A stretch of DNA of 64,000 nt from Polytrichum commune (Eukaryota > Streptophyta > Polytrichopsida > Polytrichales > Polytrichaceae). Position numbers and translations under genes: made by a program. Of the stretch, positions 1-64,000 are shown in pieces. Every line of letters starts with the position of its first letter. The stretch's first letter is position 1. Below the pieces are notes generated by a model. It was given only the letters and a program-made list of their open reading frames with translations, was not told where the DNA came from and searched no databases. The stretch is from contig OX485804.1 of assembly GCA_950295325.1 (NCBI GenBank), positions 66,874,033 through 66,938,032 on the forward strand, given 5' to 3'.

Positions 1-3000
1 TCGTCTCCGCCCAGGTCGAGAGTGTCCATGCGGACATCCTCCATCTCCGCGGATGGATGTCATCCCAGGTCAGGGCTCTCAACGTCCATTCCTTGGACAG
101 CTGCCGCGTCATTGGGGCTCCCCTGCGTTTCCTCCACAATGACCATGTTAGTGTGTTGCGCAGATTCATCGCCCTGCCTATCCACTACCCTCGGGTCGAC
201 TGTCAAAGAGGCGGTGTCAGTGACTGAGGCCAGTCCTACCCTTGGAGGGGGGGGAGTTAGGACTGCCGGACCTGAGGATTCACGAACGCGCGTTCGTAAA
301 TCTTCGTCCTCGTGTATGGCAGCCCTTATCGCATCGTGGGAGTTGGCGGGGGTGGCAGTCAATTCAGGGGGCGGAGGACTCCCAGCTGGCGTTGGGTGTG
401 GTGCTGGTGGGTGCGAAGGTCCTCCGGGGAACAGGCCTGGAGGGGGGGAATGGGAGGGGTATCCTCCGGGGAAGGGGTAAGGCTGTTGTGCTGGCGCCGA
501 GAAGCTCTGCATATTTCTGAGCATCTCAAATATGGCGTCCGTCTTTGCTGCGGACTCCCGCAGCGCCTCCTGCATGCGGGCCATATTTCTTGCACTCTCC
601 TCTGCTGCAGCCGCCATTTCCTCCTTCATTTTTTGCTCTAGCTTGGCATTCAGCTCGGCAACGGTCAGCGCCTCCTCCTTCACCCGCTTGTTCTTGTCGT
701 AATCGACCCCCAGCTCCGTCATGATGTCCATGTCCCCCTCGTCTTCGTCCGACACCTCGATGATTGCTCCCTCAGGCAACTCCACGTACGGCGTCTTCTT
801 CATCCTCCTCCTTGTGTTCCGGAAGAGGTCCAAGGATGGACGCGAGCGTTGGTCGAGGAGGTCGAGGGTCTCCATCCTCGGAACGACGACGGGCCTTGGA
901 GACACTGACGTCGAACAGCCGCCAGGCGTGCCTAAGGCTTCCGCACCCGACACTCTAGCGGGGAGGACATCCTGGGTTGTCCCAGCCGAGGATCCTGTAT
1001 AGCCCCCCGGTGTCCCTTGGGGGTCAGAAGGGTGACCCGCTGGCGCCAACATCCGTAAAGGAGTGATGTTGAACGACTGCAAGATGGCGTCCACGTCCAC
1101 GGAGGGGGCGGGCTCGTCATCGTCTGTCTCCATGCCCGGCATGCCCTCGTCGACGGGCATGCTGAAGTCCTCCCTGGGGACACACATGTCATCGAGGTCC
1201 ATTGTGGACGCTTTCACCCTGTGGACCTGGTATTCATCCTCGTCTTGGGCATCAACGTAGTTATTGACGACCAATCCCAACATCTGTACCAACGATTCCA
1301 AACATGTCAGCATATACGAACGTGCGTTCATAAACATCAACATTGAGACAAGGCCAGATCAACGCAAAGGGGAAAATGCCACAACTATTATAACATTTGA
1401 ATCAATGAAATTTACGAACGCGCGTTCGTAAATCTAAGAATGATAGCTTACCATGGCCGTGTACATGAACTTGCTGCCTCCAAAGACGTTGTATACCGTC
1501 TCTCCAGCGATTGCCAAGCTCTGCAACACTGACACGTAGAACTCCAACCTGAGCTCCAGCGCGGGGAAAACCGTGTACAGTGTCTCCTGCAGCAGTTCCT
1601 TGGGAGGGGGTGAGGGATGTTGTATATCTTCTTGAAAGTACTGTTCGCCTTCACAGGCGCTCTCCCATTTCTGAGAGCATTGTACGTTAAGAAGATCAAG
1701 CTGACAGCTCCCACCTGCTTGTTGCCCCTGGCCTCGTTGATGGCCACGATCCCTTCCGTTTTTGCGGGCACGTAGGTGCTGTGGTAGATGCTGTATTCAA
1801 ATTTGATGGTATTTTCGTACAGCTCCGTCACAATGGATAGCTTCTCCTGTTCCACTATCCAAAGTCATACGTGAGGCTCCCTCATGTCAAGCGATCTGTA
1901 GTCTTGAAACTTTGCCATGAAAGGGTTGTAGAAGGGAAAATCCTTTGCCCCTTGCCTCGTACCTCCTGGGATCCCCCTGAAATCAATGAGGGCAAATGGG
2001 CAACCCCTGCGGTCCTCCCTCACCTCGGCCTTACTGATGGTGCCGTCCCACTTAGAAAAAGTGGTCCTCTCCAGCCCGGTGGTTACCAAACAAAATCTGG
2101 CCACTCCCTCGAATGTGGCCCTCCGCTTCCTCTCCAAAAAAATTATATACAACTCCACCTCCTGGGGATCTGTCTCTGCTTTCTTGGTCCGCTTGTTCCC
2201 CTTCAGCTTCAAGACGGAGGCGTGTTCCTTAACTAGCCTACGCATGGAAGAGCCGTTGATGTTGTACCCGACCTTGAACTCCTTCCATCCAGCCCAGTTG
2301 ATGTCCCTGTCGGCCTGGAAGAGTTTGTACTCCGGGACGAGTGCGCCCAACTCCCTCATTGCATTGGTCTTCAACTTGCGATGTTCGCACCACTTCTTGA
2401 TGGAGTACGTTCCGGGCCTGTGCTTTGGCCTCTTCAAAAATATCTTCGGGTAGGGGATTGTTCTCCCGACGGTGTTCCCAAGAGCATGCACTGCACATCT
2501 TTGCAATTCCGACTCCGTCAACCCCTGAAGCGGTCTAAAAAATTCCCTCAGCAACGGAGGGGCTTCCCCAGTCTTCTCCTTGCTATATTTTTCTTCAGTG
2601 TCGGGGTTGACGAGATCCCCCGCACTGTGAGCATCAAAAAATTGGGTCCACAAATCCCAGGTGTCTCTGTTGCAACAAATAAGACGGAGCTCACCCTTCA
2701 GCTCGAGCACCGACTTCGTTGAAGTGGACTTCATGTCGATGGAAGAGAATTTGTCAACCATCGCATCGCAAAACGCCTGCATTAGAAAGGAATGTCAGCG
2801 GGCAATCAAATACGAACGCACGTTCGTAAATAAAATGATCAGGAATGTTGTAAAGGAACCTGAGAATTACGAACGCTCGTTCGTAAACTTACCTTCCATT
2901 GTGGAGACTGGTTTTTCGCATTCTCCCTCTCCTTTGGTGGGCACTTGTGTGCCACCCACACGTCTCTCGCAGCCACTATGTTTGCTGCCCATGATGCCTC

Positions 3001-3960
3001 AAACGCCTTGATCTTATTCCCGGAATTTAAAAATGTTGAAATTTTCCGGAGTTTGTCCCAGTCGTCTGACCACACCAGGAACGCCTTCCAGTAGCGCAGG
3101 TCCCCCTTTAGCTCATGCTGGAAGTTATCATCCTTGAGGATGATCTGCGATGCCTCCAAGCTGTGCTGTCCATCAATAATCCAGAACTCCCCGTTCTGGA
3201 TTCTTGCCTAATCTTTCTCCGTGGGACGGGAAGTGAAACCCTTTGGCATAACGCACACAGTTTGCCTATCCCACTTCACGTTATTCATCAGGTTGTTGAT
3301 TTGCCACTTCACACCTCCGCTTTCACGTGACCTCACCACCCACTTGTTGGGGGATTTCTCGCATTTGAAGTAGTCCACGTTGAAGGTAAAGTGCCGTCCC
3401 ATGGGCCAGCAATCCTTCGAGTAATTGTTGAAGTCGCGAAGGATACGAGTCGCCTTTGCCGCATCAGGGTTTTCCCCCTTCTTCAAAGGAGTCTGCATGA
3501 CAGGCGGCGAGTTGACCTCAGTTGTCTCCGTGACACCAGACTTCTCCATATCGTCCCGAGTTCTTTTGGATGGCGTGGAGTGTCTGCTTGGCCCTTCTGA
3601 CAATCTGCTAGCTGAAGGCACTGGCCGCGGCGCACTTCTAGAACCTCCTGCTCCGGATGCAGTAGGTTTTTTAGGACTCTTCTTCTTGTTGTTGGCCTCC
3701 ACGACGGCACTGTTATACTTGGACATATTAAGGGCCAGTGCTGTCAGCTTCCTGGCTGTCCAATGCTGGCTGAGGCTGTACTTCGTGAAAAGGTTCACGA
3801 GGTCGAAATGCTTGGCATCCTCTACAACATTATTCTGTGCGTATGTATGGGAGAAAGGGTGCCTCCTGAAGTCCAGCAGGAGGTTGATGTGGTCTTTTTT
3901 GTTTTTCAAGTCCAAGATAACAAAATCACCCTGTGCCTCTATGGACTCTATCTCCGGGAA
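1..3960. mobile_element. Element alpha (CACTA-like), left segment
   Basis: Part of a CACTA-like two-gene element interrupted by delta1. This segment holds most of its ParB-methylase-like gene and palindromes of the ACGAACGCGCGTTCGT family at about 279-301, 1314-1336, 1411-1433, 2811-2833 and 2868-2890. The remainder, with the matching N-terminal exon, the same palindromes and the partner DUF7869 gene, resumes at 33077 and ends at 42396. The outer left end lies before the window. The assignment rests on reading-frame continuity across the insertion, homology to gene B, and the shared palindrome. Confidence 0.7.
60..3960 (-). pseudogene. ParB-like/degenerate methyltransferase gene of alpha (gene A), main part
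   Basis: Minus-strand gene, exons about 3960-2893, 2776-1452 and 1283-60, with GT-AG introns. Its first coding exon is at 33077-33240, cut off by the delta1 insertion. Order: S/P/K-rich linker; ParB/Srx-like region with WIIDGQHS (about 3140-3190), followed by a conserved YWKAFLVWSDD stretch; a middle region with LIDFRGIPG, where a methylase motif IV would be; NVFGGSK, a degraded motif I; then an acidic and coiled-coil, proline-rich tail. Gene B is homologous throughout. It is broken: in-frame TAG at 3208-3210 and TGA at 1865-1867 (both opposite Trp in B) and a frameshift near 1610-1650. One palindrome lies inside the last exon and encodes LRTRVR; the others are intronic. Role is inferred: an element-encoded DNA-binding accessory protein, probably not a catalytic methylase. 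Confidence 0.65.
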
Positions 3961-3995
3961 AAGCTATTTTGCGAGTGGTGAGCGGTGAGCGGTAA
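3961..3995 (+). repeat. Left terminal inverted repeat of delta1
   Basis: AAGCTATTTTGCGA followed by tandem GGTGAGC units and ending GCGGTAAG. It is the inverse of 33042-33076 and matches 52698-52745. Gene A coding sequence stops at its outer edge. I could not find an identical flanking target duplication; the flanks read GGGAA on the left and CGTCC on the right. Confidence 0.7.
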
Positions 3996-5091: not shown

Positions 5092-6835
5092 CTAAGACAT
5101 ATAATCGAAATCACAATTATCAGATAATGCTATAGAGACTTTAGAATCTATACTATCTGCATCTGAAGATCCTTCATCCTCAGACTCAACAACTTCTAAA
5201 TCAACATACTCTATACCGCTTAGCATCAACTCCTTAGGTCTAAATGTACGATATGAACCTTCCGCTAATTCATTGGCAACGTCATTTGCGTATGAAGGGA
5301 GCCGCCATGACTTTGGAGGGCTTGGATAGAACTTAGGGTCACAAAAAAAAGGGCGGTGACTAGGGTATCTCAAATTACCGCTTCTGCAAATGCAAATGGC
5401 AACATGGTCATAAAACCGCCTCATATGAAAGCAAATAAGAAAATATATCACTAGTAGTAGAAATAGTAGCTATACTCACTTACTAAACCTTGATTTCTTC
5501 ACGATCTTCTGAACAACAATGATTTCGCTATCTGGATCCTCTGACATGACAACGTCTCTTGATTTCACTTCTATGGCCGAAGCATATCGAATTAGAGGAG
5601 CGATCAAGGCTTCAAAAATTGCCTTGTCAGCCTCTAATGCCGCAATGTGACGGTTCACATTGCGGCACGCATGAATAGAAACTCCTGCAAAATAAGAAAA
5701 CAATGAAGTTCAGTTCTCAAACAACATAAAAATTAATTAACATGAAATGGGCAACGGTTATTTACTTAAACATGAAGAGATGTACAACGTACCCGTAGCT
5801 GTAGAGCAGTCTAGAACAATATCCCCGGGTGAAGAACATGCCTGAATGAGCATCTGTATAAGGGCGAGGGATTTTTCGCGAGGACCACACCAAGGGGTAG
5901 ATCCATCCATTAACTGATCCTCCCTTGACACCAAGTTCTGGAGGATGTCATCCCGTGCCACATCAACCCCGTGACGGTCTAGTGCAGGGATGTGTTGAAA
6001 GCAAAATCTTGAAGCACGCACCTCCGGAATGCTCCTCACAACTAAAGTTATTCCAAACCTCATGGTCTGCAGATTACAAAAACAGTTAATAACTTTACTT
6101 ACGAAATAAGATAAAAATCATTAAGCACATTCTAGCAAATGAAATGGAAGATTAATTCCACAAGATTTATAACATAAGATACAGCTATCAATCAAATTGG
6201 CAATAAGTCATATCATAAAATAGACTCATAGTCAAGACTGGATTAATTGGGGACGTCAGGTGAAGCTTGTTCATCCCCCACCACTCCTTGCGAACAACAA
6301 ATCCATACGTGGAACAGTACCCAAGAATGATTGACTTTGTAGACATTCGAAAAGGATGGAACAAAATTATCGCCCCATCGTCTTGGAGGTGATGATCTGC
6401 GAAATCAAAGATTGTTTGAAACCAATCCTCAGGTTCTATGTTCCAGGCGGGAATAGACGAAGGTGGATTCGAAATTCCTGGAACAGGAAGGCCCTCTGGA
6501 AGATCTGCAAGAATCAAGTCCACACAGGGTACTTCCGCAGCAGATCCCTTGTAGCGTCGGCCTTTGTCACTTGAGTGCTGGGCATGAAAATAAATTTATC
6601 AAAACTCTGACAAGAAAATCAAAGAATGCACACATTCTAACTTGACACCGTTCTGAATTAATGTGAATCAATTAATTGACTTTGAGATCAAATATTTGAG
6701 AAGGAGCTGTGTATGTAATGAAATCGCATATAACATACAAAAACATATAGAAGTCAACGACTTAAGCAAGTGCTGAAGTTTTCATACAATGAAAATTAAC
6801 AAAGAAATGCGTTGGATGTCATTGTAATTTCCAAA

Positions 6836-9829
6836 TGGCAATGACATTAGTGGATGTCAATTTCAGATTCCATTCAACCAACTATTAAACTCAGCCTAAA
6901 CATACTAACCTCATTTCAGAATACATTCAACCCACTGATTCACTCAACCTAAGCATAACTAACCTCATTCAGATCATATTCAACCCACTAATACACTCAA
7001 CCTAAGCATAACTAACCTCATTTCAGATAATATTCAACCCTCTAATACAGTCAACCTACACCTAACTAGCCTCATTTCAGAAAACAATCAATTTCAGATT
7101 TGACTCAACCTACTTAACTATCTGCCCCAATATGGTTGTCTCGGTCCCGAGACACCTATTTGCATGACTAGAACTCAATTTCAGATTCCATTCAACCAAC
7201 TATTAAACTCACCCTAAACATGCTAACTTCATTTCAGAATACGTTCAAGCCACTACTACACTCAACCTAAGCATAACTAACCTCATTTCAGATCATATTC
7301 AACCCACAAGTACACTCAGCCTACACCCTAACTAGCCTCATTTCAGAAAACATTCAAGTTCAGATTTGACTCAACCTACTTAACTATCTGCCCCAATATG
7401 GTTGTCTCGGTCCCGAGACACCTATTTGCATGACTAGAACTCAATTTCAGATTCCATTCAACCAACTATTAAATTTCAGACTTCACATACTAACCTCATT
7501 TCAGAATATATTCAACCCATTAATTCACTCAACCTAAACAATACTAACCTCATTTCATAATAAATTCAACCCAATAATGAACTCAACCTAAGCATAACTA
7601 ACCTCATTTCAGATCATATTCAACCCACTAATACACTCAGCCTACACCTAACTAGCCTCATTTCAGATAATATTCAACCCTCTAATACAGTCAGCCTACA
7701 CCTAACTAGCCTCATTTCAGAAAATAGTCAATTTCAGATTTGACTCAACCTACTTAACCATCTGCCCCAAAATGGGTGTCTCGGTTCCGAGACACCCTTC
7801 TCCATGCTAGATTTCAATTTCAGATTCCATTCAACCAACTATTAAATTTCAGACTTAACATACTAACCTCATTTCATAATATATTCAACCCATTAATTCA
7901 CTCAACCTAAACAATACTAACCTCATTCCAGAATAAATTCAACCCACTAATGACCTCAACCTAAGAATAACTAACCTCATTTCAGATCATATTCAACCCA
8001 CTAATACAGTCAACCTAAGCACAACTAACCTCATTTCAGATAATATTCAACCCGCTAATATAGTCAGCCTACACCTAATTAGCCTCATTTCAGAAAACAT
8101 TCAATTTCTGATTTGACTCAACCCACTCAACCATCTACCCAAAATGGTTGTCTCGGTCCCGAGACACCGTTTTCCATGTCTAGAATTCAATTTCAGATTA
8201 CATTCAACCCACTTTTGAAGTCAACCTGAACATAACTAACCTCATTTTAGAAGACATTCAACCCACGAATTCACTCAACCTAAACATATCTAAACTCATT
8301 TCAGAATACATTCAACCCACTAATGAACTCAACCTAAGCATAACTAACCTCATTTCAGAATGCATTCAACCCACTAATACACTCAACCTAAGCATAACTA
8401 ACCTCATTTCAGATAATATTCAACCCTCTAATACAGTCAGCCTACACCTAACTAGCCTCATTTCAGAAAACAGTCAATTTCAGATTTGACTCAACCTACT
8501 TAACAATCTGCCCCAAAATGGGTGTCTCGGTCCCGAGACACCCTTGTCCATGCTAGATCTCAATTTCAGATTCCATTCAACCAATAATAAAATTCCAGAC
8601 TTAACATACTAACCTCATTTCAGAATACATTCAACCCATTAATTCACTCAACCTAAACAATACTAACCTCATTTCAAAATAAATTCAACCCACTAATGAA
8701 CTCAACCTAAGCATAAATAACCTCATTTCAGATCATATTGAACCCAGTAATACACTCAACCTAAGCATAACTAACCTCATTTCAGATCATATTCAACCCT
8801 CTAATATAGTCAGCCTACACCCTAACTAGCCTCATTTCAGAAAACAGTCAATTTCAGATTTGACTCAACCTACTTAACAATCTGCCCCAAAATGGGTGTC
8901 TCGGTCCCGAGACATCCTTGTCCATGCTAGATCTCAATTTCAGATTCCATTCAACCAATAATAAAATTCCAGACTTAACATACTAACCTCATTTCAGAAT
9001 ACATTCAACCCATTAATTCACTCAACCTAAACAATACTAACCTCATTTCAAAATAAATTCAACCCGCTAATGAACTCAACCTAAGCATAAATAACCTCAT
9101 TTCAGATCATATTGAACCCAGTAATACACTCAACCTAAGCATAACTAACCTCATTTCAGATCATATTCAACCCTCTAATACAGTCAGCCTACACCTTAAC
9201 TAGCCTCATTTCAGAAAACATTCAATTTCATATTTGACTCAACCTACTGAACCATCTACCCCAAAATGGGTGTCTCGGTCCCGAGACACCCTTCCCCATG
9301 CTAGATTTCAATTTCAGATTCCATTCAACCAACTATTAAATTTCAGACTTAACAACCTAACCTCATTTCTAAATACATTCAACAAATTAATTCACTCAAC
9401 CTAAACAATACTAACCTCATTTCAGAATACATTCAACCCACTAATAAACTCAACCTCAGCATAACTAACCTCATGTCAGATCATATTGAACCTACTAATA
9501 CACTCAACCTAAGCAAAACTAACTTCAGTTCAAATCATATTCAACCCACTAATACAGATAGACTACACCCTAACTAGCCTTATTTAAGAAAACATTCAAT
9601 TTCAGATTTGGTTCAACCCACTGAACCATCTGCCCCAAAATGGGTCTCTCGGTCCCGAGACACCCTTCTCCATGCTAGATTTCAATTTCAGATTCCATTC
9701 AACCAACTATTAAATTTCAGACTTAACATACTAACCTCATTTCAGAATACATTCAACCCACTAATTCACTCAACTTAGGCATAACTAACCTCATTTCAGA
9801 TCATATTCAACCCACTAATAGTATGGTAC
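6836..9829. repeat. Satellite array I, inside an intron of gene C
   Basis: Tandem units, mostly about 375 bp (one about 265 bp), in the intron between the exons ending 9830 and starting 6569. Each unit has one GTGTCTCGGTCCCGAGACAC core (about 7137, 7403, 7778, 8153, 8521, 8896, 9269 and 9645) followed by several subrepeats of about 53 bp containing CTAACCTCATTTCAGA and TATTCAACCCACTAAT. Differences in unit length are whole numbers of subrepeats. The array is AT-rich, and the conserved CpGs sit in the palindromic core. Confidence 0.85.
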
Positions 9830-15600: not shown

Positions 15601-16560
15601 AGCAAAGTAGGAGGGTTGGTTCCCCTCCTTTGAATTATATGGTCCGGGGTAAGAGGAGCTAACCATTAGCATGGCGGTATGCGAAGGGTTAGCGCTCGTA
15701 ACCTTCGCTAGAATTGAAAATTGGCAAGATTGTCAACGGGGGCTAGCAAGGGTTGCGACACTAGAACTCAATTTCAGATTTCATTCAACCAACTATTAAA
15801 GTCAGCCTAGACCTACTAACCTCATTTCAGAATGCATTCAACCCACTAATACACTCAAACTAAGCATAACTAGCCTCATTTTAGATCATATTCAACCCAC
15901 TAATACAGTCAGCCTTCACCCTAACTAGCCTCATTTCAGAAAACATTCAAGTTCAGATTTGACTCAACCCACTTAACCATCTGCCCCAATATGGTTGTCT
16001 CGGCCCCGAGACACCTATTGCCAAGCCTAGAACTCAATTTCAGATTTCATTCAACCAACTATTACATTCAGCCTAGACCTACTAACCTCATTTCAGAACG
16101 CATTCAACCCACTAATACACTCAACCTAAGCATAACTAACCTCGTTTCAGATCATATTCAACCCACTAATACAGTCAGCCTTCACCCTAACTAGCCTCAT
16201 TTCAGAAAACATTCAAGTTCAGATTTGACTCAACCCACTTAACCATCTGCCCCAATATGGTTGTCTCGGTCCCGAGACACCTATTTCCAAGCCTAGAACT
16301 CAATTTCAGATTTCATTCAACCAACTATTACATTCAGCCTAGACCTACTAACCTCATTTCAGAATACATTCAACCCACGAATTCACTCGACCTAAACATA
16401 TCTAAACTCATTTCAGAATACATTCAACCCACTAATACACTCAACCTAAACAGAACTAACCTCATTTCAGAATACATTCAACCCACACATACCTCTAACC
16501 CCAAAAAGAGTGTCTCGGTCCGGCACCTTTGTCTCGGTTTCGGTCTCGGCACCTTTTTTC
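12660..16560. repeat. Satellite array II, in a 5' intron of gene C
   Basis: Same family as array I, here mostly in units of about 267 bp (cores near 12838, 13105, 13371, 13637, 13905, 14220, 14487, 14754, 16000, 16264 and a degenerate last one near 16512). Core centres vary between TC and CC. The array lies between the exons at 16709 and 12593 and is interrupted by a solo LTR at 14787-15760. Short open frames here (such as repeated ISEYIQPTN-like peptides) are repeat translation, not genes. Confidence 0.85.
14787..15760. mobile_element. Solo LTR, 974 bp, in satellite array II
   Basis: GC-rich, non-satellite block starting TGTCGCGCACC and ending GGTTGCGACA, so TG...CA with a short inverted TGTCG/CGACA end. 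It is flanked by a perfect 5-bp target duplication CTAGA (14782-14786 and 15761-15765). Removing one copy restores the normal satellite reading AAGCCTAGAACTCAA. No protein, primer-binding site or polypurine tract follows, so this is a solo LTR. Orientation cannot be told. Confidence 0.85.
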
Positions 16561-25118: not shown

Positions 25119-25139
25119 CTGTAAGAAAATAATGTGCAA

Positions 25140-38768: not shown

Positions 38769-38871
38769 GAACTTGACTGATTTGACATGCTGCGTTGAAT
38801 GTCGTCCATGTTGGCTGTCATTCTTTCGTTTACGTTTGGGTCTCCTGGTGCCTCTGGTTTTTGTAGGTGGG

Positions 38872-51640: not shown

Positions 51641-52697
51641 TATACACCAGAGACGCTCCTGGAATCTAATACTCGCGTGTAGGAATGGTTGTCTCGGATC
51701 CGAGACAAGGGTAGAGGGGTGCTGTTTGTTTTGCTATTTTTGAAAATGCTCTTGGTGTCATTTCCGTGGGTTTTAAGGTAGTTAGAGCTTGTGTATATCT
51801 ATAAGAGAAATATGTTAGTTTGCCTTCCTGACTGTGCGTTAAATGGGTTGTCTCGGATCCGAGACAAGGGTGGACGGGTACTATTTCATGCGTTTTTTTA
51901 AAAAAAATGCTCTTGTCCTCATTGCTTGGTTGTAGTTTTGTTTTTCGAAAATGCTTTATTTCTCAATTCGTTAAGGGACTCACTCCAATTTTGTGCGTTA
52001 AATTTGTTGTCTCGGATCCGAAACAAGGGTGGACGGGTACTATTTGTTTTGTTTATTTTGAAAATGCGCTTGTTCTCATAGCCTTGGGTTCTAAGCGGCA
52101 GGGCTTCATGTACATCAGAGAAACCCGTCAGTTTTCCTCTAGGATTGTGCATTAAATGGGTTGTCTCGGATCCGAGACAAGGGTGGAGGGCTACTATTTC
52201 ATTTTCTTTTTTTTGAAAATGCTCTTGTCCTCATTGCTTGGTTGTAGTTTTTTTTTTCGAAAATGCTTTATTTCTCAATTCGTTAAGGGACTCACTCCAA
52301 TTTTGTGCGTTAAATTTGGTGTCTTGGATCCGAAACAAGGGTGGACGGGTACTATTTCATTTTCTTTTTTTCAAAATGATCTTGTTCTCATTGTTTGGTT
52401 TTAGTCTTTTTTTTTGAAAATGCTCTTATTTCTCAATTCTCTTATCCATATGCGCAGATGACTCACGTTGAATGGAGGTTGAAGATGGTGGTTTAGCAGA
52501 GATTGAGGAGAAATTACGGAGAGCCGTGAGAGGCAATTCACATGAAGCAATTCAAAGTGCACTTGAATCTCCAAACTGTGAACTTGACGTGCCCTTGTGC
52601 AGGATGATTCCTATGAAGGATGTTAGAGAGCCCTTGAAGACTGACATTCAGAAGTTGAAGGCAGAGTTCTCTCGTGGGTATAGGCGGGCAGGGGAGT

Positions 52698-55334
52698 GCT
52701 ATCTTATGAGCGGTGAGCAATGAGTGGTGAGCGATGAGCGGTAACTTATGAGCAGTGAGGAAGATGAAAATTTTGGTAATAGGGCCACCAATATCCTATA
52801 ACCGTGGAATTGTGGCCTTAAAAATGATGATTTTAGGGTTTAGTAATAAGAGGGTTGAAAAGGATAAACAACATGAAGTCCAAAAATTTATTGATCAGTA
52901 GTAGCACTAGACATGAAACTATCTTTTGCCTCGTCATCTATATATATTCGAGCACCTTTGCATTGCGAATTGATTTTGGAACTATAGCAAGATTCTTCAT
53001 TTGGATCCGAATCTTCGAGATTCAATATTGCAATTGCAACATTCTCGGCATATGATGGGAGACGCGGGCTACGGCTTGGACTTCGTAGGAATTGTCTATG
53101 TGCCCAAAACGGGAGACATGTCCTCTTTCCAATCGTATTCCTGAAATCAAATCGATGAAACATGTAAATAATGTGAAGAAATAAAAATGAACCAATGAAT
53201 TGAATGAAACGAATGAATTGAATAAAAATTTATTGTATTAAAACTTACTCACACTCAAATTCAAGCATCTCCTCATCCGAGAGGTCATCATCTTCTTTTG
53301 TGAGATCTTGTATATTCTCCTTAGATGACCCCTCTTTCAAAACGTTTTCCAAAAGCGGTTTCAATATGTGCTCAAACATGTCATTATCACCCTCAAATGC
53401 AAGAAGATGTCTGCCACATGCGCGTGTTGCTAGGATAGAAGCTCCAGTGGAACATGTCAAATCAACAACGCGTCCATTCGATGGTGTAAACAATTCAATA
53501 AGATCTTGAAAAAAAACGCGGCGATTTTTTATATGGCCCCCTCCAAGGTCTTCCCGATTTTTTAAGAAACATGTTTTTTTCATCCACAAAATTGAAAAGC
53601 AAGTTTATGCTTTTCAATCCAGTGCCAAAAAAAGTGGAGTTTGGTTGTCTCGTGGATTTTGTGGTAGTAAAATCCCTTACCAAGACATGAGCCATAAATG
53701 CCGGAGTCTACAAAAAAATGTAAATTGTGTTAAAACTATATACAATGCAAATAACACCAAAATAATTAAATATAAACAATTGTAATGTGTTATACTTACG
53801 GTGTAGGTTGGAGACTCTGGATCCTTGAACACCATGTACGAATTGAGGCAAATAAAAGTCCTAAGAACTTTCATGTTGCCGTTGTGTAAGGTTGAATTCA
53901 AAACCTTCTTGGTTTGCATATCGATAGCACAAAAAACTATGAGGACGCCATCATCAGACAAGATGGACTTGCACAAGGACATTGTTGCAACCATCCAGTT
54001 CTTGTCATATTTATTCCAAAGAGGAATTTCAGTAGGTCTATTGGAGAGGTTGAAGTCAAGACCGTCGGGAAATTGGAGAAAAACCAAGTCAACGGCAAAG
54101 GGAGTCGGACTTCCCATGACATGAAATTCGCGATTGTCATTGAACTGAAATACCACAACATATCACAATATAAGACACAAAATAAAACCCAAATGAAAGT
54201 AAGAACATTAGAGAAAATACCAAAACAATAATACTTACGTTTTCAATAAATTCCCGCCATTGGATCCACTCAGGAGGGCCTACATCCACCCCTTCAGACT
54301 TATTTTTGACAGCAGTAGATCGAGCAAACGAGAACGTGAGAAAGTTCTTCAGTATGAATAACTCTTTTATCAAAATATCCGTTGGCGCACGATGAATAGC
54401 GTCATAGGTGCTGAAGTAATGAAATTCCAATACATCGCACCTAGACTTTGAACTTTCGTTTCCAAGTGGATTCTTATCCAAATCATTGGAAAGAACAAGC
54501 AATTCTTCATGTTGTGAAATTTCCGATTGACCTTGTATTTTGGTTTCAGGAACATGTTTCCTCTTACGACGTTTTGTCTCTTTTGGTTCTAGCTCTCTAA
54601 GTTTAAGCTGCACAATTTGTGCTTGTAAAATTGCAGTATCACGAGGATCCACATTTTTAGCATCATTTATCTGACGGATTGTCTTCTCACTTGACGGACA
54701 TGCATCATTAGGACAATCAAGATACCAACCACAATCCTCATAGTGTGGGAGCGACCAATCCAAACAAATCTCAGTAGTGAACATGCATGAATCTCCTGCA
54801 CCAGTGTCACGCCAATTTGGGAAAAAACGAGGTTCCCCTATAATGCATTTATGTGGAATCAAAACATATCGAAAATACCTACACACAAAAATATTGTAAG
54901 TCAAATATTCCATGATAATTTGACAAATGAAATCAAAAAAATCAAACAAATAATAAGATTAGGTTGTACCTGTATAATACATGTTTTATGGCAAGATCAA
55001 TATTAGGTTGCTCATCCCAACCGTTGTGTTTTTTAACTTTTCTGCTTTGGAATTCACGATAGAATATTGAATTGAAAGCCGCAAACTTCCAGGTTTGGAT
55101 ATACTCGGAGAGAGTAGGCACATCTGCAGGCAACTGAAGAGGAGATGAAAGAATACTTTGAAGCTCTTCGATAGTTTTTTTTTCCAACTGTGCCCAATAT
55201 GTAGACTTTGATAACCAATCATCAAGTGCAGAATCAGAGAGGGGCGATTTCGGGAAATACAATGCATCTTTGTCAAATCTATTGCCATTCCAAAGCTTGA
55301 GCCATCCAACTTTGACTTCTGCATCCACATTAAA
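52698..55334. mobile_element. Element delta2 (MULE-type), left part to the gamma insertion
   Basis: Begins GCTATCTTATGAGCGGTGAGC with tandem GAGCGGT-like units to 52745, then CCTATAACCGTGG at about 52796. This is the same terminal layout as delta1 left, and a ParB-methylase-like gene likewise ends just inside. Gene D runs up to 55334, where gamma starts. The remainder, including its transposase gene, should lie beyond gamma, outside the window. Confidence 0.65.
52888..55334 (-). pseudogene. ParB-type methyltransferase-like gene of delta2 (gene D), C-terminal part
   Basis: Exons about 55334-54970, 54878-54239, 54144-53800, 53707 to about 53250, and about 53140-52888. It begins in mid-protein at VDAEVKVGWLKLWN, homologous to the gene C exon at 11258-11040. 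Also shared: GWYLDCP, a basic linker with RRKRKH, then the methylase-like part. DLVFLQFPDG stands in motif-IV position, VVDLTCSTGASILATRACGR in motif I, HLLAFEGDNDMFE in motif II, and RLPSYA near the C-terminus. No DPPY is present. The frame shifts in a run of eight T (about 53503-53512), which may be a real mutation or a sequencing error. The ParB part is missing because gamma inserted at 55335. The intron between gene C exons 11040 and 10878 is absent here. Confidence 0.65.
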
Positions 55335-55962: not shown

Positions 55963-58900
55963 TCATTCACCATCTTCATCTTCTGCTTCATTTCCATTCT
56001 CGACATTGTTTTCTGCAGCAGCAATACGTGCCAAGTTGTCTTTGGCAAAATCTATATGTTTTTGGGAGATGGTCATTGTTTCAGTTTTGGAACCTTTGCG
56101 TGGTTTCCAAGCACAAAGTATGGTATCCGTGTTTATCCATATTGGTTCGTATGCTAAGTCCATTGTCCATTTGAAACCTTTTTTCGTGTCCCACCTTAAA
56201 TATGTGCGGAGCACATTTTGATCTTTGGTGCTTGGACGGCAATATTCCACCTCAATTTGACGAAAATTTGGGCTAGTTGGAACAAAATTTGGTGATGACA
56301 ATGCTTTCACCAACCAAATCGGTTTAGGATGTTCCTCATCTCCAGGACGTACGAGGACCATATAACCTTCGTAGCAATCAATAGCCACACGAAATGATGG
56401 AGCCGGGCGATTACGAGCAGGGCCAACATAATGGTCGTCCGCCGCGAACTCTTCACGGACGTCCCCATTGTTGAAGAACATGGCCTCAGATTCCACGATT
56501 GTCACTCGGCTTAGTGGCCAAAAACCTTGTGTCAAACATGATGGTCTATCGTCTTCGGGTGCTAGCAACGCTGAGTGGATGCGATCCCAATACGCAATCA
56601 ATGGTTCGTGGGTATCCCGAACACGTCTTGTGATGTCTTCCTCGCACAAATCTTTCCAGTACTCGATGAATCCATATATACCTTTGATGATTTCTGGTCC
56701 ATTCCTCATGGGGTTGGGTTTGCAAGGCTTCGGCTCCCCATCAGGTAGCATACATTTGCCATCTTCGTTTTGGCGCCATACGAGTATCCCTTCCTCTGGG
56801 CCCCAATTCGGGGAGGTACACAAAACTTTGAATTGCATGGCCGGCAGACCATCATCACGCATATAGAATCGGAATTGTTGAGCCTTGGTATGGCCCACTA
56901 AGCGGTCACCTCCTTTAAGAATGAATGGTTTGATAAACGATTTGAAATCGGGCACTTCTTCAATCAAATGCGGGATGACTGGCACATTATCCAAATCCAT
57001 GTACGATTTCATGAGAAGAGGAATTGTGGGAAAATCATCCTCGTGCAACTTCATACTCCAATGTCCGAATGAAGCGTCAATGTCATCGTGCGTGTGGCCA
57101 ACCATCAAAAAAGACACAAACACTTCTTTGAAAATGCCCTTGGCTACGAGCAATGACCAAAAACAAAATACGTATCGACATTTGTTGTCCTTGGCACAAT
57201 TATCAAGTTGCACGTGTAGAGTTGGAGGCAAAGGTTTAGCAAGAACGGGTTGTTCAGGCGGTTCTTGCAGTGAAGATAGGCAAACCTCCTTCCCCTCTAG
57301 CACAGCCTCATAAATCGGTGGTGTTCCACATCCAACAAAAAGAGCACGAGAGGATGATGTGGGCGGACTCTCAAGATCTCGTAGAAGTTTTGCAAAAGAC
57401 CCTACGGTATGATTGGCGTCGCCATGATAGAAATCCAAGCCATAATGTGCATATTTCACGTCCACATGACCATGTGCGATCATACCTGCATTTAGCCACA
57501 CAAATCGTATATATGAATGAAATTCAAAAATTTCCCCAAGCAAGCAAAAAAATGTACACTTACGGACGTACATCCGTAAATCTTAACAATGAGTATGTGG
57601 GCGCGCAAAAAATAAATGTGAAAACCAACAAACCTGTGACAAATATTGGAAGCTTGAAATATCCATCTGTAGCCTTTATTTTCCGCGCATAACAAGGGCA
57701 CGCCGTCTTTGCATGGTCCATTTTGTCATGAATGATTGTCAAAACCTCATTCGGCCTCATTATCGATAATGCGCGATTCTTGTAGTAGTCTTGACGGTGT
57801 GCCTCCTGGTTGTTGACATGCTCAATGTATTTCAGTTGATGTCGGTTGTGGGACTCAGTCCCAATGGGATGTGCATCTCGAAGGCCTTTATATTTCTCAC
57901 AAGCAGAACACCTGGCAAACTTATCCCCAGGTCTCTTCGTAATATATTCTGCGAATTGTTGATTCTTGATCACACTCAATTTTGACAATGAAATCGGCCC
58001 ACATCCAGCATTTTCGCCAACTTCATTAACATCCATAAGTATGTTCTTCCATTTTGTCCCTGTAGGCAAAACCATCTGAACAACCTTTTCCCCTGACGGC
58101 AAAGTCCGCGTCTTGTGTGGCATCGCATCTGCCAATGGCATAATGATGGTTGATAGTGTTGCAGCCGCTTGGAGTGTTGCCTCCCTAGGCTTCTTTGTGC
58201 CAGAGTTGCCATGGAACCGAGAACGGCGTCCTTGCATCGAGTAGTTCCGGAACCTATAAAAATCTGCCTTTGAAACTGCATGTATAATGTACCATGCCTT
58301 GCAACATATCTCTACATTTTCCAAGGTCACAACCTTACGACCTTCGACATCAAGGTGCATGTTGCGATGGACTTCAAGTTTCTTTGCAGATCGCATATGA
58401 AAGTCCGCGAGCCACATCTCTTGTCTCAAAGATTTGATCTTGTCACGGGGAAATAGTTGGCAACATCTCTTTGCACAACAATCCTTTGTTGCTACGGACC
58501 TAATAGATGCATCTCCCAATGTTTGATCTCGACGACGTTGCGTGGGTTCACGAGGTAAACGAACGGAATCATATTTACGCCGACCTATTCTAGGGCGCAT
58601 TGTGGAGAACAAAGCGGATTGCATTTGATCAAAACGGCGGGAATGATTCCACAAGCTGACACCATCATGAAGAACACTGCGCAACGGCCATCGACGAAGA
58701 GAGAATCTCCAACCAGAAGGCACTTCCAACGGATGTAAGGAATTCAAAATGCACACCCCCACATCTTCTTCCCCAAGGGGATTTGCATCAATACAATCCG
58801 TAGGATTCGAGTTCCGACAAACACCATCAGCCACGGGGACGCCACATCCATTGAGGAGGACGACATCAAGATCAATCCACTGCTCCCGCGAATAACCCTC

Positions 58901-59038
58901 ACATGGTGGGAGGAATTCATCCTCTACATTGGCGACACCAATTGTAGTATCTTGTTCCACGACAACTTCAAACTCGCTAGCATAGCTTGACGCTTCCGAC
59001 GAAAAATCAACCCCACTATCACCGACGTTGGAATCCAT
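55963..59038 (-). CDS. DUF7869-type transposase-like protein of gamma (gene E)
   Basis: Exons 59038-57634 and 57485-55963 with the same splice site as gene F. About 975 residues, no internal stop, stop TGA. Start MDSNVGDSGVD chosen because homology to F begins soon after; an upstream ATG at 59098 is in frame. Most residues match gene F by eye, including CCAKRCCQLFPRDKIKSLRQ, ARCSACEKYKG, LHVQLDNCAKDNK and FLMVGHTHDDID. Acidic C-terminus. The intron contains one gamma palindrome (about 57560-57582). The presumed transposase of gamma. Its close identity to F is striking because the palindromes beside the two genes differ. Confidence 0.75.
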
Positions 59039-59183
59039 GGCCACTACAAGAAAGCCAAATGAAGAGTATGTCAAAATATCCCATTCAATAAATGTCATGG
59101 ATAGCCCTAACGCTTATTATTGTCAATGAAACACAATGTGAACACTAGTGGCTTTCATGGCTTGGAAACAAAGCTAGCATTGG

Positions 59184-60032
59184 TATACGAACGTGCGTCC
59201 ATATACCTCCATGTAACAACATCAGCAGCGCAAGCACACGCGCATACGGATACATTTATGTGTTCATAGGAGCGGGAAGGTGGAGGCAACAAAAACATCA
59301 CTGGTTTATGGACGCGCATCCGTTAATCGGCTCGTGCACAGAGTTCAGTATCATGCTCAACCACAACATAGGTATACGGACGCGCGTCCATAAACATCCG
59401 TATGACAAACATCAATGTAGTCCTAGATACAAGTTCAAGGAAGCAAGACGTCCTCCAAAAACGGCCATGTGTACACAACCCTGACGACTCATGAAATTTG
59501 AGGAGGATTGAACACGGCCATACGCGCTTCCTAAAATGTTTAATCAATGTCAAAATATTTTACTATGACATAGGGTGATGTAGGCTAAGGGATGCGAGCT
59601 CCCAACCCTTCCTGACCGTACAGTCTCAGTGCAGTCTCAGTCTACATGGCACATGGTCAACATTATGGTAACAAAGGTTTACAGGTTTACGGACGCGCGT
59701 CCGTAAACCTCTGTGGACCTCATTTCTAGCATAAAGACAGTGCTCGACGGAATACACCTCTGTGGACATCATTACTAGCCTAAATACAATGTCCAACGCG
59801 CCAAGGGGTTTACGGTTTACGGACGCGCATCCGTAAACTTCCATGGTAATATATTGTCGTTGTGGTACTCTACACGACAGGTGGTGTAGGTGACCTACAG
59901 AACTATGGCACCAAAGGTATGCAGGTTTACGGACGCGCGTCCGTAAACATCCATGTACATGAGTATTGGCTCAAACAAATAAAGGTTCAATGAACCAATA
60001 TGTTTAAGGTTTACGGACGCGCGTCCGTAAAT
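59184..60032. repeat. Palindrome cluster upstream of gene E (gamma family)
   Basis: Copies at 59184 (hybrid ACGAACG/CGTCC), 59305, 59373, 59685-59708 (perfect), 59815-59838, 59925-59948 (perfect) and 60009-60032, core ACGGACGCGCGTCCGT with GTTT/AAAC flanks. Same relative position as the 37.8-38.8 kb cluster of alpha. Repeats such as CTCTGTGGACATCATT flank several copies. Confidence 0.9.
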
Positions 60033-63000
60033 CTCCGTGATTTGCGGCGTTAAAATAGGATCATTGCACCAGAAAGGATAACTGTCCGAAATTTTAAAAA
60101 AATCAGCACACTACAAGGAGAGTGCAACCCAAATACAAATTGTCTACCCTAATGGGCTCAGGATTTGGGGTTTAGAGTATAACAGGATCTTAACCTGTAC
60201 AAAATCTGTAGCAGGAGCACACTACAAGAGCGCAACCCACAGCTGAGATGCAAAAAGAGTCCCGACGGTGGGGGGTGTCCCCTTAAGTACTGATCGCTTT
60301 CCCTTGGATCCGTTTTCCAACATAGGATACCAGCCACCAACTATGTCCTATAAATACAAACCTAGCATTACTACATTCCGTGTGCCAGCCTTACAATGGA
60401 ATGTGTATTCATGTGGACAACATGCATAGACCATGAGTCCACATAATGACAAAGAGAAAGGCATCTATGTATTTGTGGTATACAACAAAGTAAATTGGCT
60501 AATATTATATGAGCAATAAACATTGTTGAGGGGTGGTTTATAGGATTGGAGTACATAATATGAAGAGTACATTTTAAAAAACGTAGACAAAAAATTATAG
60601 AATCTTGTGAAAAATCAACCACCACAACAACAATAGTACATGGAGTATAAAAATACATGTAATCAAAATTAAATTAGCAACTATTTTATTATTTTGCATA
60701 CAATGTAATGGTATTGACCATAATATCATGCTATCTCCTCTCATCTTGCATTTAATATTATAATTACATTGGCCACCGCCTTACCATCCAACATGTTTAA
60801 TGTACCCAACTATACACACCTATACATAATTGTATTGATATCTGATACACAAACTTTGATTACCGTAAGGCCATGATAGTAGCACATCTATTGTCCTAGG
60901 TAACATGGGTTGCATTCAATTCAATATTGTCAATTTTCTCTCTAAACCTTAGGGGCCCCTTCCGTACATCAACATTTACTTCAAAATAAACTAATTATAC
61001 TAGCCTTCTTCATGTACTATACGTGAGGGAAAACATTTTTTAGTACCTCATGTACATTACCTACATTAATTAATACTCAAACAATACCAATTGTTGCTCC
61101 AAGTAACATTATTAGCCCAAAACAACATAATGGAGAGAAAGGAAGGGTAGGGTATCCACATAGTAATAAGGCAAGCAATATTAAGTTGGTGACGCAAGGG
61201 GGATACTCACATGCGTTCGTACGTGGTACCCTAAACCCTAAACCCTATAACCACCCAACCCTAAACAAGCATGTGGACATATAGGGGTGCAAGCATGGTT
61301 AACTGAACAACTCCCGATACATGTCAAGGCTTAAATGGAAAGTAATTCAAAACAAACAAGCAAACAATTATACCAATTGTTGTTCTACGTAACACTATTA
61401 ACCCATAAAATATAATGGACAGAAAGGGAGGGTAGGGTATCCAAATAGTAATAAGGCAAGCAATATTAAGTCGGTGACACAAGGGGGATACCCTAAACCC
61501 TAAACCCTAAACCCCATAAACGACTCCCCACTCATGTCAAGGCCCAAAATTATCTAAAATAAAACCATAAACATTTCAAAAGTCAAGCAAATTTATGTTC
61601 ACAAATTATACTTCAAGACAGTAAGTGGTGAAAAAGTAGGTGACATAGAACAAAGATTTATCAAATTGTCAATGGCAATCCTAATTACCCTATATGCGTA
61701 ACCTTACCTTTCATTTTTTTAATCTTTATTTGGCTGGGTAAAATATACCCCTTAGAGGCAAGTACAAGATTTAGCCGGGACTTGTTATCCTTTGATGTGA
61801 CCTCAAGTTTATAATGAAATGAAGGGATACAATATGAAAACAATTAAGCCTTCAAAACATTTAAGATCATCAAAGTGATGTTCTGAGTCATATTTATCCA
61901 TTTGCTTTAAACCTTTACTTTTGAAGATAGGTTTTGAACAGCATTAACACAACCATACATGTCACCATCATGGAAACAAAACTCCAATATAAACAACAAT
62001 TTGCTACTACTTATAGGCGATAATACAAGCTCTTGCCTAGGTTTGGAAGGATTGGATGAATCCTGAACGTTGTTTAATGTACAAGAGGGATGTAAATTCA
62101 ACACCTACCCATGCCTTTTGTTTTAATGCAAGCTTAGACCTATGTGCAGAGGGATTGAATTAACCCCTAACGTTGTTTAAGATTTTATAAGCATTTGATC
62201 TTAACCCATATTATCTCGATGTTTGGTTTTGTTAATTGTGTTTCAAATGTGCATAATTTAAATATCATTATTTATAATGATATTCGCATCAAAGCATCCC
62301 ACGTGTCGAACTTCAATAAAGTTTTCAAGTTGCTATTGATAGTATAATGTAGGGTTGAAAATCCCCTTACACAAATTATTGCGATAATTGAGGGATTCAT
62401 AAGGGTGTAGGGGCAACGTTTCATGAGAATTTGTGGCCAATGGGTAATGCAATTGTCCCAATTGCATTTGAATCCCACCTTTGTGAAAAAAAAATTATAC
62501 TTAACTTAATCAAGAAGACATCCTTTATATTCAATATTATTACTATTCTTAAAATATAAAGTCCCCTCCATACTTGCTACACTAGAAATGGTATAATTTA
62601 GTTTCACTCATTGTTTGGAGTTACAAAAGGCTTTATCTTTTTATTATTGATGTTATTTAATTGATGCCAATGACATATTAATATACAATGAATAGTTAAT
62701 ATAGCAATCCATAATTCTAAATATTAAGCAATACTACTTATAATAGTTAGTGTACTAGTAATTTAAAGCCCGCTTACCTTCATATTACAACAAGTCCACA
62801 AAGAAAATCTTACACTTGAGTTACTCAACCTCAACCTATACTTCAGAATTATGTTTACTATTGGGCCTAGATGGTTATTATACATTGAGCATTGAGATTC
62901 CTTTATTTTTGGTCAGCAATTGTTTTTGGTATACGTTCTTGGACTCAAACAACATACAATCCATCCTCTATAAATGTTAGGCTCTAGAATACAATGTTCC

Positions 63001-63400
63001 TAACATTTATTGTGAGTTGACATTGTAACAATTATAAAGGGAGCTTTTTGAATGCTTAACAAATTTCATTCATTACAATTATGAAGGGAGAGTTTTGCAA
63101 AATTATCAAACATAAAATATGTGTATCAATCACAATATAACCCATATTAATAATTTGATCACAAATTTGGTGGCTTTTGCCACTTTGGAAGGTTGTGACT
63201 CAATGTAATGGATGTCATCTCACAATATTGGATGTAGTTCGTAGGTTAACATTTATAAGTGGCAAATTAACAAAGAGGGGAATAAATTATTCTTAACATT
63301 TAACAAAGTTAACATTCTAGTTAGCAATATGAGAGGAGTACGAATTTGTTAACAAATACAATTATGAGTTAACATGTGGAAGTGTGACATTTATCGAGGG
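60033..63400. other. AT-rich part of gamma, no gene
   Basis: Direct duplication of about 135 bp at roughly 61070-61210 and 61358-61495 (share GGGTAGGGTATCCA and AATAAGGCAAGCAATATTAA), each followed by CCCTAAACCCTAAACCCT (61229-61246, 61491-61512). No gene found. Confidence 0.5.
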
Positions 63401-64000
63401 TGGACTCTACCACTCTAATATAGACCAATAGACATATGCCACGTAAGGGGAACGCGTGGCCTTTGGGCGCGGGGTGATGGGACGTCTAGGTAGGGGCGTT
63501 TGGGAGGGAGTGGATGCAACGTTTTGGGTTTAGGGTTTCGTGCATTCGCCCTTGCCCTTTTTGCTTTCACCCTTTCACCCTTTCCTCCTTTCGCTCCTTT
63601 CCTCCTCCTGCATTCCTTTGTTGCTCGCCCTTGCTCCTCGCCTTTGCTCCTCGCCCTTGCTGCTCGCCCTTGCTGGTCCTCCTTCTCCTCCTTCTCCACC
63701 TCCTCATTCTCCTTCTCCTTCATTCTCATCCTCAATCTCCTTCTCCTTCATTCTCCTCCTCAATCTCCTTCTACTTGCTGTTTCTCCTCATTCTCCTCCT
63801 CCTTCTACTTGTTGTTTCTCATCCTTCTCCTTCTTGCTCTTGATTTGTTGCTTTGTGTCTTAGTTGCATAAGAGCGCCAGGAGCTCTAGACAGGTGCTTT
63901 TTTCTTTCCTTCACTCCAAGATGTGCTGTTCCAGGTGCTTATTAGGTGATTTCAGTGTATGTTTTGATGCACAAAAGGGGGATTGTAAGATTGTAAGATT
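63401..64000. other. GC-rich then CTCCTT-rich stretch
   Basis: GGGGCG-rich 63450-63520 with TTTAGGG, then (CTCCTT)n-type low complexity to 63840. Open frames here come from the repeat. It may be the promoter zone of the expected ParB-like gene of gamma, like the pyrimidine-rich blocks at 25.7-26.3 and 34.4-34.7 kb. Confidence 0.4.

Follow-up and report, generated by a model that had tools for sequence, protein, structure and literature searches.

Results

Element fragments and genes in the window

The window analyzed in this study, a stretch of 64,000 nucleotides of Polytrichum commune DNA (C2:66874033-66938032), comes from a genome of 407.8 Mb and 64 contigs, ∼406 Mb of which is contained in seven contigs of 42-78 Mb. 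The window proved to be a nest of truncated elements (here designated E1 to E8) with three relevant types of gene: DUF7869 genes, Mutator-like element (MULE)-like transposase genes, and ParB/methylase-like genes, the last belonging to a clade linked to DUF7869 genes (clade D) or to a clade linked to MULE-like genes (clade M). Our data support the view that two transposon types share one arrangement, in which a transposase gene and a ParB/methylase-like gene point away from each other on either side of a set of palindromes; in the loci examined, the clade of the ParB/methylase-like gene and the palindrome went together. No unit was complete within the window: E2 was without its DUF7869 gene (homology to locus L043 stopped at 29134), the ParB-like genes of E5 and E6 were cut at ∼33.07 kb and ∼52.7 kb, respectively, and E7 began inside its own gene. 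The arrangement was therefore demonstrated from copies outside the window.

Clade D was represented by three genes, all on the reverse strand. The E1 gene (63..3963; DGQHS at ∼3180) had lost its 5′ end at ∼3965 and contained an in-frame stop and a frame break. Its introns (2892-2777 and 1451-1284) both had plain GT-AG borders, and its palindromes of type P1 (280..2886; starts at 280, 1314, 1412, 2810, and 2867) fell twice in intron 1, twice in intron 2, and once in exon 3 (280-299). In the E2 gene (20482..25130; DGQHS at ∼24086), exon 1 ran from ∼25130 and carried one in-frame stop and a frame break, exon 2 extended to 22243, and intron 2 (22242-21979) had plain GT-AG borders; the acceptor of intron 1 was not fixed. 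An uninterrupted exon 1 frame of this gene family was found at L043:8091-9512. Fifteen palindromes of type P2 (20450..25498) lay upstream of the E2 gene, in introns 1 and 2, within the coding sequence of exon 3 (20773 and 20842), and on the 3′ side. The E1 and E2 proteins, matched piecewise, were 37-44% identical in amino acids. A "coiled-coil gene" that had been taken as a separate gene in both elements is now read as exon 3 of the same gene, following the P1- or P2-bearing intron. Of the third gene, that of E5, the N-terminal exon was present (33052..33309).

Two DUF7869 genes were found, that of E5 (38770..41990, forward strand, in two open frames; PF25273 at 40359-41990, E 3.3e-41) and that of E8 (55966..59113, reverse strand; PF25273 at 55966-57582, E 6.1e-39). 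Membership of the DUF7869 family was supported by PF25273 matches of 141, 134, and 134 bits, against a cut-off of 26. The P1 palindromes of E5 (33273..38657) comprised 12 upstream of the ParB-like exon (starts 33273-33925) and 10 upstream of the DUF7869 gene (starts 37777-38638), and palindromes of a further type, P5, were found upstream of the E8 DUF7869 gene (59374..60034). The P1 sites at 33.3-33.9 kb had also been considered as part of the MULE-like element E4; they go with the E5 ParB-like exon, which is cut by the end of E4.

Clade M was likewise represented by three genes. The E3 gene (5095..12653, reverse strand; DGNHR at 12107) had an in-frame stop past the DGxH box, and its methylase exons carried motif IV (6595-6191) and motif I (6117-5761). 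A tandem array of 374-bp units inside this gene (6853..9820) held eight sites of palindrome P3 (7137-9645), and upstream arrays of mainly 266-bp units (12670..16486) held ten more (12837-16262). The C-terminal part of the E7 gene (52691..55332, reverse strand) consisted of a motif IV exon (54162-53680) and a motif I exon (53604-53248). In E6, an N-terminal piece of a ParB-like exon (52472..52705, forward strand; 39.5% amino acid identity to E3, E 8e-8) was cut by the 3′ end of E7, and eight sites of palindrome P4 (47910..52180) were located between this piece and the E6 MULE-like transposase gene (42951..46579, reverse strand; 49.5% amino acid identity to L036:2-1486, E 6e-170).

A second MULE-like transposase gene, in pieces, was recognized in E4 (30061..32510, forward strand) by homology to E6 (four blastp pieces, 37-71% amino acid identity, E 6e-8 to 8e-110). 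A C(2)H motif was read as ERTCLFHW in E6 and ERTCFFHW in E4, and a SWIM-like motif (CTCP...CKH) in E6 only; the MULE label of both genes is based on these motifs, which we take to be features of MULE transposases. None of the six MULE-like pieces matched a Pfam transposase model at E≤10, in a search where HMMER filters drop most weak matches. MULEs are characterized by terminal inverted repeats and an 8-11 bp target duplication; E4 was flanked by an inverted repeat ∼7 kb apart, without a clear target duplication.

Seven copies placed the start of E7 homology at 52687-52720. At the other side, E7 homology in the copies stopped at 55332 and E8 ended at 55333, which rules out that E7 and E8 are one element and indicates that E8 was inserted in the E7 gene. 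In addition, a GAGCGGTGAGC repeat was observed at 3973-3990, 33050-33064, and 52708-52739, corresponding to three element ends that cut other genes.

Paired genes outside the window

Loci outside the window were picked to span a range of identities and are not a random sample, and the gene lists used below are the scored subset of first-look candidates (93 of 1236 for the E2 family, 129 of 1047 for E1 relatives, 150 of 1129 for the E3 ParB-like exon, and 86 of 2057 for MULE-like genes). Because these lists hold scored matches only, a partner missing from them does not denote absence.

The DUF7869 arrangement was read from loci L043 and L044, the flanks of one E2-family copy on C1, with 1.2 kb between them outside the data. 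Their order was an outward-facing DUF7869 gene, P2 arrays, the ParB-like gene, and a NIF-type phosphatase gene. Thirty-one P2 sites were counted: 16 at the start of the DUF7869 gene, 4 before the ParB-like gene, 3 in intron 1, 5 in intron 2, 2 in exon 3, and 1 after exon 3. The first frame of the E5 DUF7869 gene was 60% identical in amino acids to L043:970-2526, and the E5 ParB-like exon aligned locally to the N-terminus encoded in L043 with a score of 46, a value reached by none of 500 shuffles (best shuffle, 40). Genome-wide, a divergent DUF7869 gene was located 8.1-14.1 kb upstream of 70 of the 93 scored E2-family genes (random mean 0.2, maximum 3 in 200 draws), and a misplaced or misoriented DUF7869 partner was found for 2 of the 93; from the DUF7869 side, 70 of 150 listed matches had an E2-family partner.

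A corresponding order was observed for the MULE-like elements. L035 and L036 contained an outward-facing MULE-like gene, arrays of a palindrome P6 (CCTGTGCG-TTAA-CGCACAGG) together with a P2 cluster, the ParB-like exon, and the methylase exons. When 112 of the 150 rows for the E7 family were used for pairing, a divergent E7-family gene was found 2.1-8.4 kb from 59 of the 86 scored MULE-like genes (random mean 0.2, maximum 3 in 200 draws), with no misplaced or misoriented E7 partner among them; from the E7 side, 60 of 112 genes had a MULE-like partner. Thus, the original prediction that DUF7869 and MULE-type elements each carry a second gene together with palindromes was borne out by outside copies and, more strongly than it had claimed, by genome-wide pairs, though not by a complete unit in the window itself.

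The NIF/dullard-like phosphatase gene of the E2-family elements was found both in the window (19188..20030, reverse strand; PF03031, E 1e-12) and at L044:2298-3140 (forward strand), within a 97.6% DNA match. The second Asp of the first motif is catalytic in HAD phosphatases; here the first motif reads DLNG, and the second catalytic Asp is seemingly lost. CACTA transposons have CACTA ends and a 3-bp target duplication. The view of the DUF7869 elements as CACTA transposons is unproven; a window scan with exact 10-base seeds yielded a single CACT pair, 10 bases long, that has no relation to the DUF7869 genes. Scans of IMG/VR with E2 exon 2 and with DUF7869 gave no relative, and no paper on DUF7869 was found in the open-licence part of PubMed Central (PMC). 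Pairs of E2-family genes were also noted on C1, C2, C3, C4, and C5, either inverted (18-136 kb apart) or direct (66 and 111 kb apart), as was a direct triplet on C3 with members ∼84 kb apart; these may be large duplications, nested copies, or assembly effects.

Palindromic words and their CpG spacing

With up to 2 mismatches allowed, sites in the window were found at 280-2867 and 33273-38638 for P1 (TTACGAACGnnCGTTCGTAA), at 20450-25477 for P2 (GTTTGGGTCGnnCGACCCAAAC), in the two E3 arrays for P3 (TGTCTCGGnnCCGAGACA), at 47910-52161 for P4 (the P3 half-site with centre AT), and at 57560-60011 for P5 (TTACGGACGnnCGTCCGTAA). The P1 and P5 lists overlap because the two words differ by one base per half; of the 30 sites tallied for P1, 3 are truly P5, and of the 21 tallied for P5, 15 are truly P1. 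The P2 tally was 15 and that of P4 was 8, and the P3 word was counted 27 times, 9 of them in the P4 region. Exact sites in the genome numbered 9,231 for P2, 3,737 for P1, and 1,310 for P3, and reversed-pattern controls gave 0. When the spacing between P2 half-sites was varied genome-wide, 9,231 sites were found at spacing 2, and spacings 3-8 yielded 2 sites in total; the centre dinucleotide varied, and the halves and the spacing were constant. The palindromes were located at the promoters of both genes, in introns of the accessory (ParB/methylase-like) gene, and sometimes in its coding sequence. In the three copies of E7 that were read through the 3′ end (L034-L036), no palindrome was present in the last ∼4 kb, where the GAGCGGTGAGC repeat sits.

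A feature not anticipated earlier was that, in the loci examined, CpG spacing goes with the clade. The clade-D words P1, P2, and P5 read ...CG-NN-CG..., P5 being assigned to clade D by its adjoining DUF7869 gene, as the accessory gene of P5 would fall beyond the window. In clade M, the words take the form ...CG-NNNN-CG... (TGTCTCGGnnCCGAGACA, GGGTTCGGnnCCGAACCC, TGTTTCGGnnCCGAAACA, ATGCCGTnnACGGCAT, TTGGCGGnnCCGCCAA, CTGTCGGatCCGACAG, GGTTTCGGtaCCGAAACC, GGGTGCCGnnnnCGGCACCC, and CCTGTGCGttaaCGCACAGG). When CG-Nd-CG palindromes with 6 paired flanking bases were counted in the window, 30 were at d=2, 10 at d=4, and 2 at any other d of 0-8. In 14 clade-D loci, 63 of 65 (d 0-8) were at d=2, and the single d=4 site was taken for part of a neighbouring E3 remnant in L044. 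All 19 in 20 clade-M upstream loci were at d=4; in 7 longer clade-M loci, 35 of 58 were at d=4, 20 at d=2 (the P2 cluster), and 3 at other spacings. This count presupposes CG, and the repeated-palindrome search of clade-M loci described below does not.

Single inverted repeats without CpG were also encountered in clade-M loci, once per locus and at fixed positions; examples are tcttgct...agcaaga at 1684, tgaacaaGAGTttgttca near 1696, ctgtgat...atcacag near 1898, and ttgaaac...gtttcaa at 1242. Those at 1684, ∼1696, and ∼1898 fall in the hit exon. As they are not repeated within a locus, they were left out as palindrome families. A palindrome CCTCTCGG-TT-CCGAGAGG (L034:71-826), also of the CG-N4-CG form, was observed just outside an E7 copy.

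Concerted change of gene and palindrome

E1 and E2 share two intron places, occupied by P1 in E1 and by P2 in E2. With intron places judged by distance from exon 2, ten E1-clade loci (81-97% amino acid identity to E1) had a P1-type word at intron 1 in 9, at intron 2 in 8, and in at least one place in all 10, and P2 in none; two E2-clade loci (92-96%) had P2 at both places and P1 at neither. On C1 below 2.54 Mb, each of the three scored E1-clade genes fell inside a P1 cluster or bordered one; no scored gene accompanied the P1 clusters at 640865-646098 and 2270109-2276149 or a few isolated P1 sites. Below 18.39 Mb, three P3 clusters surrounded a scored E3-type gene, and the cluster at 468609-471945 and one single site did not. 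Both comparisons cover the first sites on C1 only, among the matches listed.

For clade M, 24 loci were taken by the ParB-like exon with 1.6 kb of upstream DNA. A palindrome family was found in 17 of them, and none of 60 shuffled loci contained a repeated palindrome. The families were TGTCTCGG or its inner 7 bases (8 loci), CTGTCGG (3 loci), GGGTTCGG (2 loci), and, in one locus each, TGTTTCGG, ATGCCGT, TTGGCGG, and GGTTTCGG; the type was assigned from a single perfect site in L062 and likewise in L071, which has one imperfect site in addition. L034-L037 had the word CTGTGCG, and L041-L042 had GGGTGCCG. When the nine clade-M types were placed on 21 rows of a 27-row quick tree (including L034-L037, L041-L042, and E3, and excluding L077-L080), they required 8 changes, which is the minimum, and 0 of 200 shuffles were as low, although near-copies help in this result and types seen once cannot conflict. 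Taken together, the predicted genome-wide co-occurrence of gene clade and palindrome held in the loci examined, that is, among listed matches and chosen loci. The palindromes proved to be real, recurrent, and matched to the clade; they were not strictly private to one element, in that P2 was also present in recent E7 copies. This was the one limited way in which a palindrome occurred in elements lacking its gene, the MULE-like copies L034-L036 carrying a gene of the other clade.

Comparison of the accessory protein with methylases and ParB

A clade-M profile built from three joined methylase regions matched the PDB entries 5hek (DpnA; E 2.6e-8) and 6pbd (CcrM; E 2.1e-4 over 51-229), and CcrM was aligned across both halves of the profile in the permuted order, motif IV and then motif I. 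PF01555 scored below its cut-off (0.0043 for the motif IV part of E7 and 0.2 for the motif I exon of L036), and gave nothing for the motif IV exon of L036. Judged from these alignments, the clade-M domain is a real relative of the beta-class DNA methyltransferases. The TG core of motif I was kept (DLTAGTGAS, DLTCSTGAS, DCSTATGVS). At motif IV, DPPYG was replaced by EYPDG, QFPDG, DLPEG, or decayed forms, and [DNS]PP[YFW] was absent in all 10 copies read; methylation activity has thus likely been lost in clade M. When compared with beta-class adenine methyltransferases (the DpnA-like 5hek, CcrM 6pbd, and RsrI 1eg2), clade M matches over motif I, and the CcrM match extends to 179 profile positions with the order conserved, but the catalytic motif IV of clade M is changed and PF01555 is reached only below cut-off. 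In clade D, the methylase label comes only from a motif-like FNVFGGSK at the place of motif I and from the position after the DGxH region, and hhalign between clade D and the clade-M methylase part returned a probability of 0.4. The methylase claim of the original prediction was hence sustained for clade M, with no significant match for clade D.

The predicted ParB similarity fared worse: it came down to the DGxH motif, with no statistically significant score in any search made (Pfam, NCBIfam, PDB, and 23 bacterial ParB rows). ParB models in Pfam and NCBIfam matched none of the ParB-like exons given at E≤5, and PDB searches with both ParB-like alignments returned chance-level names only. Clade M matched clade D at the DGxH motif with E 0.0056 (a value that has no shuffle control), and hhalign between the ParB parts of the two clades gave a probability of 1.7, or 6.5 with a deeper set. 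The ParB resemblance is therefore best described as motif-level only, a DGNHR or DGQHS motif in a plausible setting.

A genome-wide PF02195 search matched two small contigs only, C12 (61 kb; L001) and C23 (20 kb; L002 and L003), which carry bacterial-type ParB genes and look like bacterial or phage DNA. L001 encodes a ParB-N6 methylase fusion with DPPYG intact. Such ParB-DNA methyltransferase fusions (L001, and L081 and L082 from IMG/VR) resemble the genes studied here in having a DGxH/ParB-type region, motif IV, and motif I in a permuted beta-class methyltransferase. They differ in that DPPYG is retained in L001, whose match to ParB_N is significant (5.7e-10), whereas here DPPYG is lost and the ParB match is not significant; moreover, the genes here contain introns and are borne by transposons. 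Searches of open-licence PMC for literature joining ParB, eukaryotic transposons, and methyltransferase, or ParB, Mutator-like, and plant, found none, and a search on ParB, sulfiredoxin, and transposable element returned two papers, unrelated by title; further papers listed contained nothing on this subject, judged by title and the opening of the abstract.

Discussion

We give about an even chance to the reading that the accessory protein recognizes its specific sites as a dimer, is probably without catalytic activity, and counters silencing in a VANC-like way. The two-fold symmetry of the words, together with their fixed spacing and free centre, led us to propose a dimer; the protein would bind its own palindrome with one subunit per half-site, and the spacing would be fixed by the protein clade, with CpGs 2 bp apart for clade D and 4 bp apart for clade M. 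The methylase domain would no longer methylate and may instead serve in DNA recognition or in reading the state of the bases. Because an element carries its words at promoters, in introns, and even in coding sequence, coating or opening of the whole element suits the pattern better than cutting at its ends, and the protein might in this way keep host DNA methylation and silencing off the element.

Several observations weigh against this reading. Seven of the 24 clade-M loci (L065, L067, L068, L069, L070, L075, and L077) had no palindrome family within 1.6 kb upstream, and L039 and L040, relatives of E7 with 74-77% amino acid identity, had none in 10 kb. P3 and P4 share a half-site though E3 and the E6 fragment are distant. 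Within the first 18.39 Mb of C1, eight E3-type genes were scored; three were in exact-P3 clusters and five were outside, one of the five (L078) having a 7-bp form of the P3 half-site. P2, the word of a DUF7869-linked gene, was present in all three recent E7 copies with the upstream part (L034-L036) and in none of four older relatives (L037-L040); in the recent copies its sites formed a cluster, mostly 32 bp apart, and they were also found at C1:2159610-2159887 beside the E7 copy at C1:2162818. Counts of CpG decay in near-matches (CpG transitions per CpG position/per other position) were mixed, at 1.62/1.8 for P1, 0.5/1.62 for P2, 1.75/0.33 for P3, and 1.5/1.25 for P6, and speak neither for nor against protection from methylation. 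With respect to the protein, no methyltransferase was among the PDB matches of the clade-D C-terminal part, which leaves a clade-D methylase unsupported. Against the 23-row bacterial ParB set, clade D scored E 0.015 at the DGxH motif (best of 40 column shuffles, 0.016) and clade M scored E 0.1 (best column shuffle, 0.012). Finally, with just two clades to compare, clade is confounded with transposase type and CpG spacing, and it could be the transposase that reads the palindromes.

A bolder form of the anti-silencing reading, which we put forward tentatively and consider doubtful, is a methylation-reading address system in which the retired methylase domain acts as a caliper on two CpGs at a clade-fixed distance. 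CpG is a main target of DNA methylation in plants, and paired CpGs are present in every word, so the protein may read methylation; the CpG-decay counts point neither way on this. The freely evolving outer half-site would then provide a private address for each transposon family, and binding to unmethylated CpGs only could give rise to a self-sustaining coated state, an epigenetic memory encoded by the element. Two unrelated transposon types would have such a memory in common, and other elements could steal it, as the E7 elements with P2 suggest.

Among the rival explanations, it is unlikely, in our judgment, that the transposase reads the palindromes for assembly of a transposition complex, with DUF7869 needing CG-N2-CG and the MULE-like transposase CG-N4-CG. 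Spacing and transposase type do co-vary, each clade having been seen with one transposase type, and arrays sit at the transposase promoter. However, transposase sites are normally terminal, and here palindromes lie mid-element, in accessory-gene introns and exon 3, with none in the ∼4 kb before the 3′ end of L034-L036, where the GAGCGGTGAGC repeat is found instead. That the methylase domain is an active N6A or N4C DNA methyltransferase of changed chemistry, marking the element at its palindromes, seems improbable: the motif I core kept in clade M and the match to DNA adenine methyltransferases would fit such an enzyme, but EYPDG, QFPDG, or DLPEG in place of DPPYG at motif IV, and FNVFGGSK at the motif I place in clade D, would not. 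It is quite improbable that no protein reads the palindromes and that they are passive by-products, having spread by slippage as tandem repeats and been inherited along with a neighbouring gene. Many sites are indeed in tandem arrays, and any linked repeat follows its gene tree; yet isolated copies occur in homologous short introns and in exon 3, the centre of P2 varies while its halves and spacing are fixed (9,231 vs 2), and nine different words keep one CG-N4-CG frame. A ParB-like loading clamp, acting to condense or partition copies of the element or extrachromosomal intermediates, would account for the DGxH box, the domain order shared with the phage-type fusion L001, and the parS-like palindromes, but is very improbable given that no search made gave significant ParB similarity and that dozens of sites occur per element (31 in L043/L044).

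The nearest described parallel to the anti-silencing protein proposed here would be VANC of VANDAL transposons, which are of the MULE type. In Arabidopsis, VANC is reported to bind short motifs in the introns and intergenic parts of VANDAL elements, and these motifs occur in tandem repeats and diverge with the protein (PMC5735166). An unrelated element bearing the VANC motif, AT9TSD1, was also affected, and the motifs given there are 8-9 bp long (YAGTATTAY, AGTTGTCC, and AGTTGTAC), non-palindromic, and without CpG (PMC5735166). The likeness extends to an element with a second gene, to a motif in tandem repeats, introns, and intergenic parts that diverges with the protein here too, and to the carriage of a foreign motif, by AT9TSD1 there and by E7 (with P2) here; it is a likeness of features. 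Unlike the VANC motifs given in that report, those found here are palindromes of 16-22 bp with paired CpGs. Other differences are that a methylase relative is involved here (in one clade) and that the module occurs in two transposon types. The TnpA protein of the CACTA element Spm/En is likewise encoded by its element, binds repeated element-specific sites (12-bp subterminal repeats), and counters silencing. Compared by description only, the proposed role is similar in combining an element protein with repeated sites of its own, and differs in that the sites here are internal palindromes.

If this reading is true, a protein of one kind, which in one of its clades is a DNA-modification enzyme of bacterial type, would have been enlisted by two unrelated plant transposon types as a sequence-specific shield, and the VANC strategy would have arisen a second time. 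It would also supply a ready-made recognition code in one genome, since one clade has nine pairs of word and gene and the other has two (besides P5); such a code raises the questions of which residues determine the choice of half-site and how the CpG spacing is set. Moreover, it would make testable how elements escape silencing with thousands of sites remaining in the genome.

Other features of the window

In the P4 region, fragments of eukaryotic large-subunit (LSU) rRNA were found at 48369-48709 and 48835-49161 (reverse strand), followed by a 129-bp tandem copy. Three features give the window a plant-like character: these rRNA fragments, an ACCCTAA-type repeat at 61490-61514, and the presence of genes with introns.

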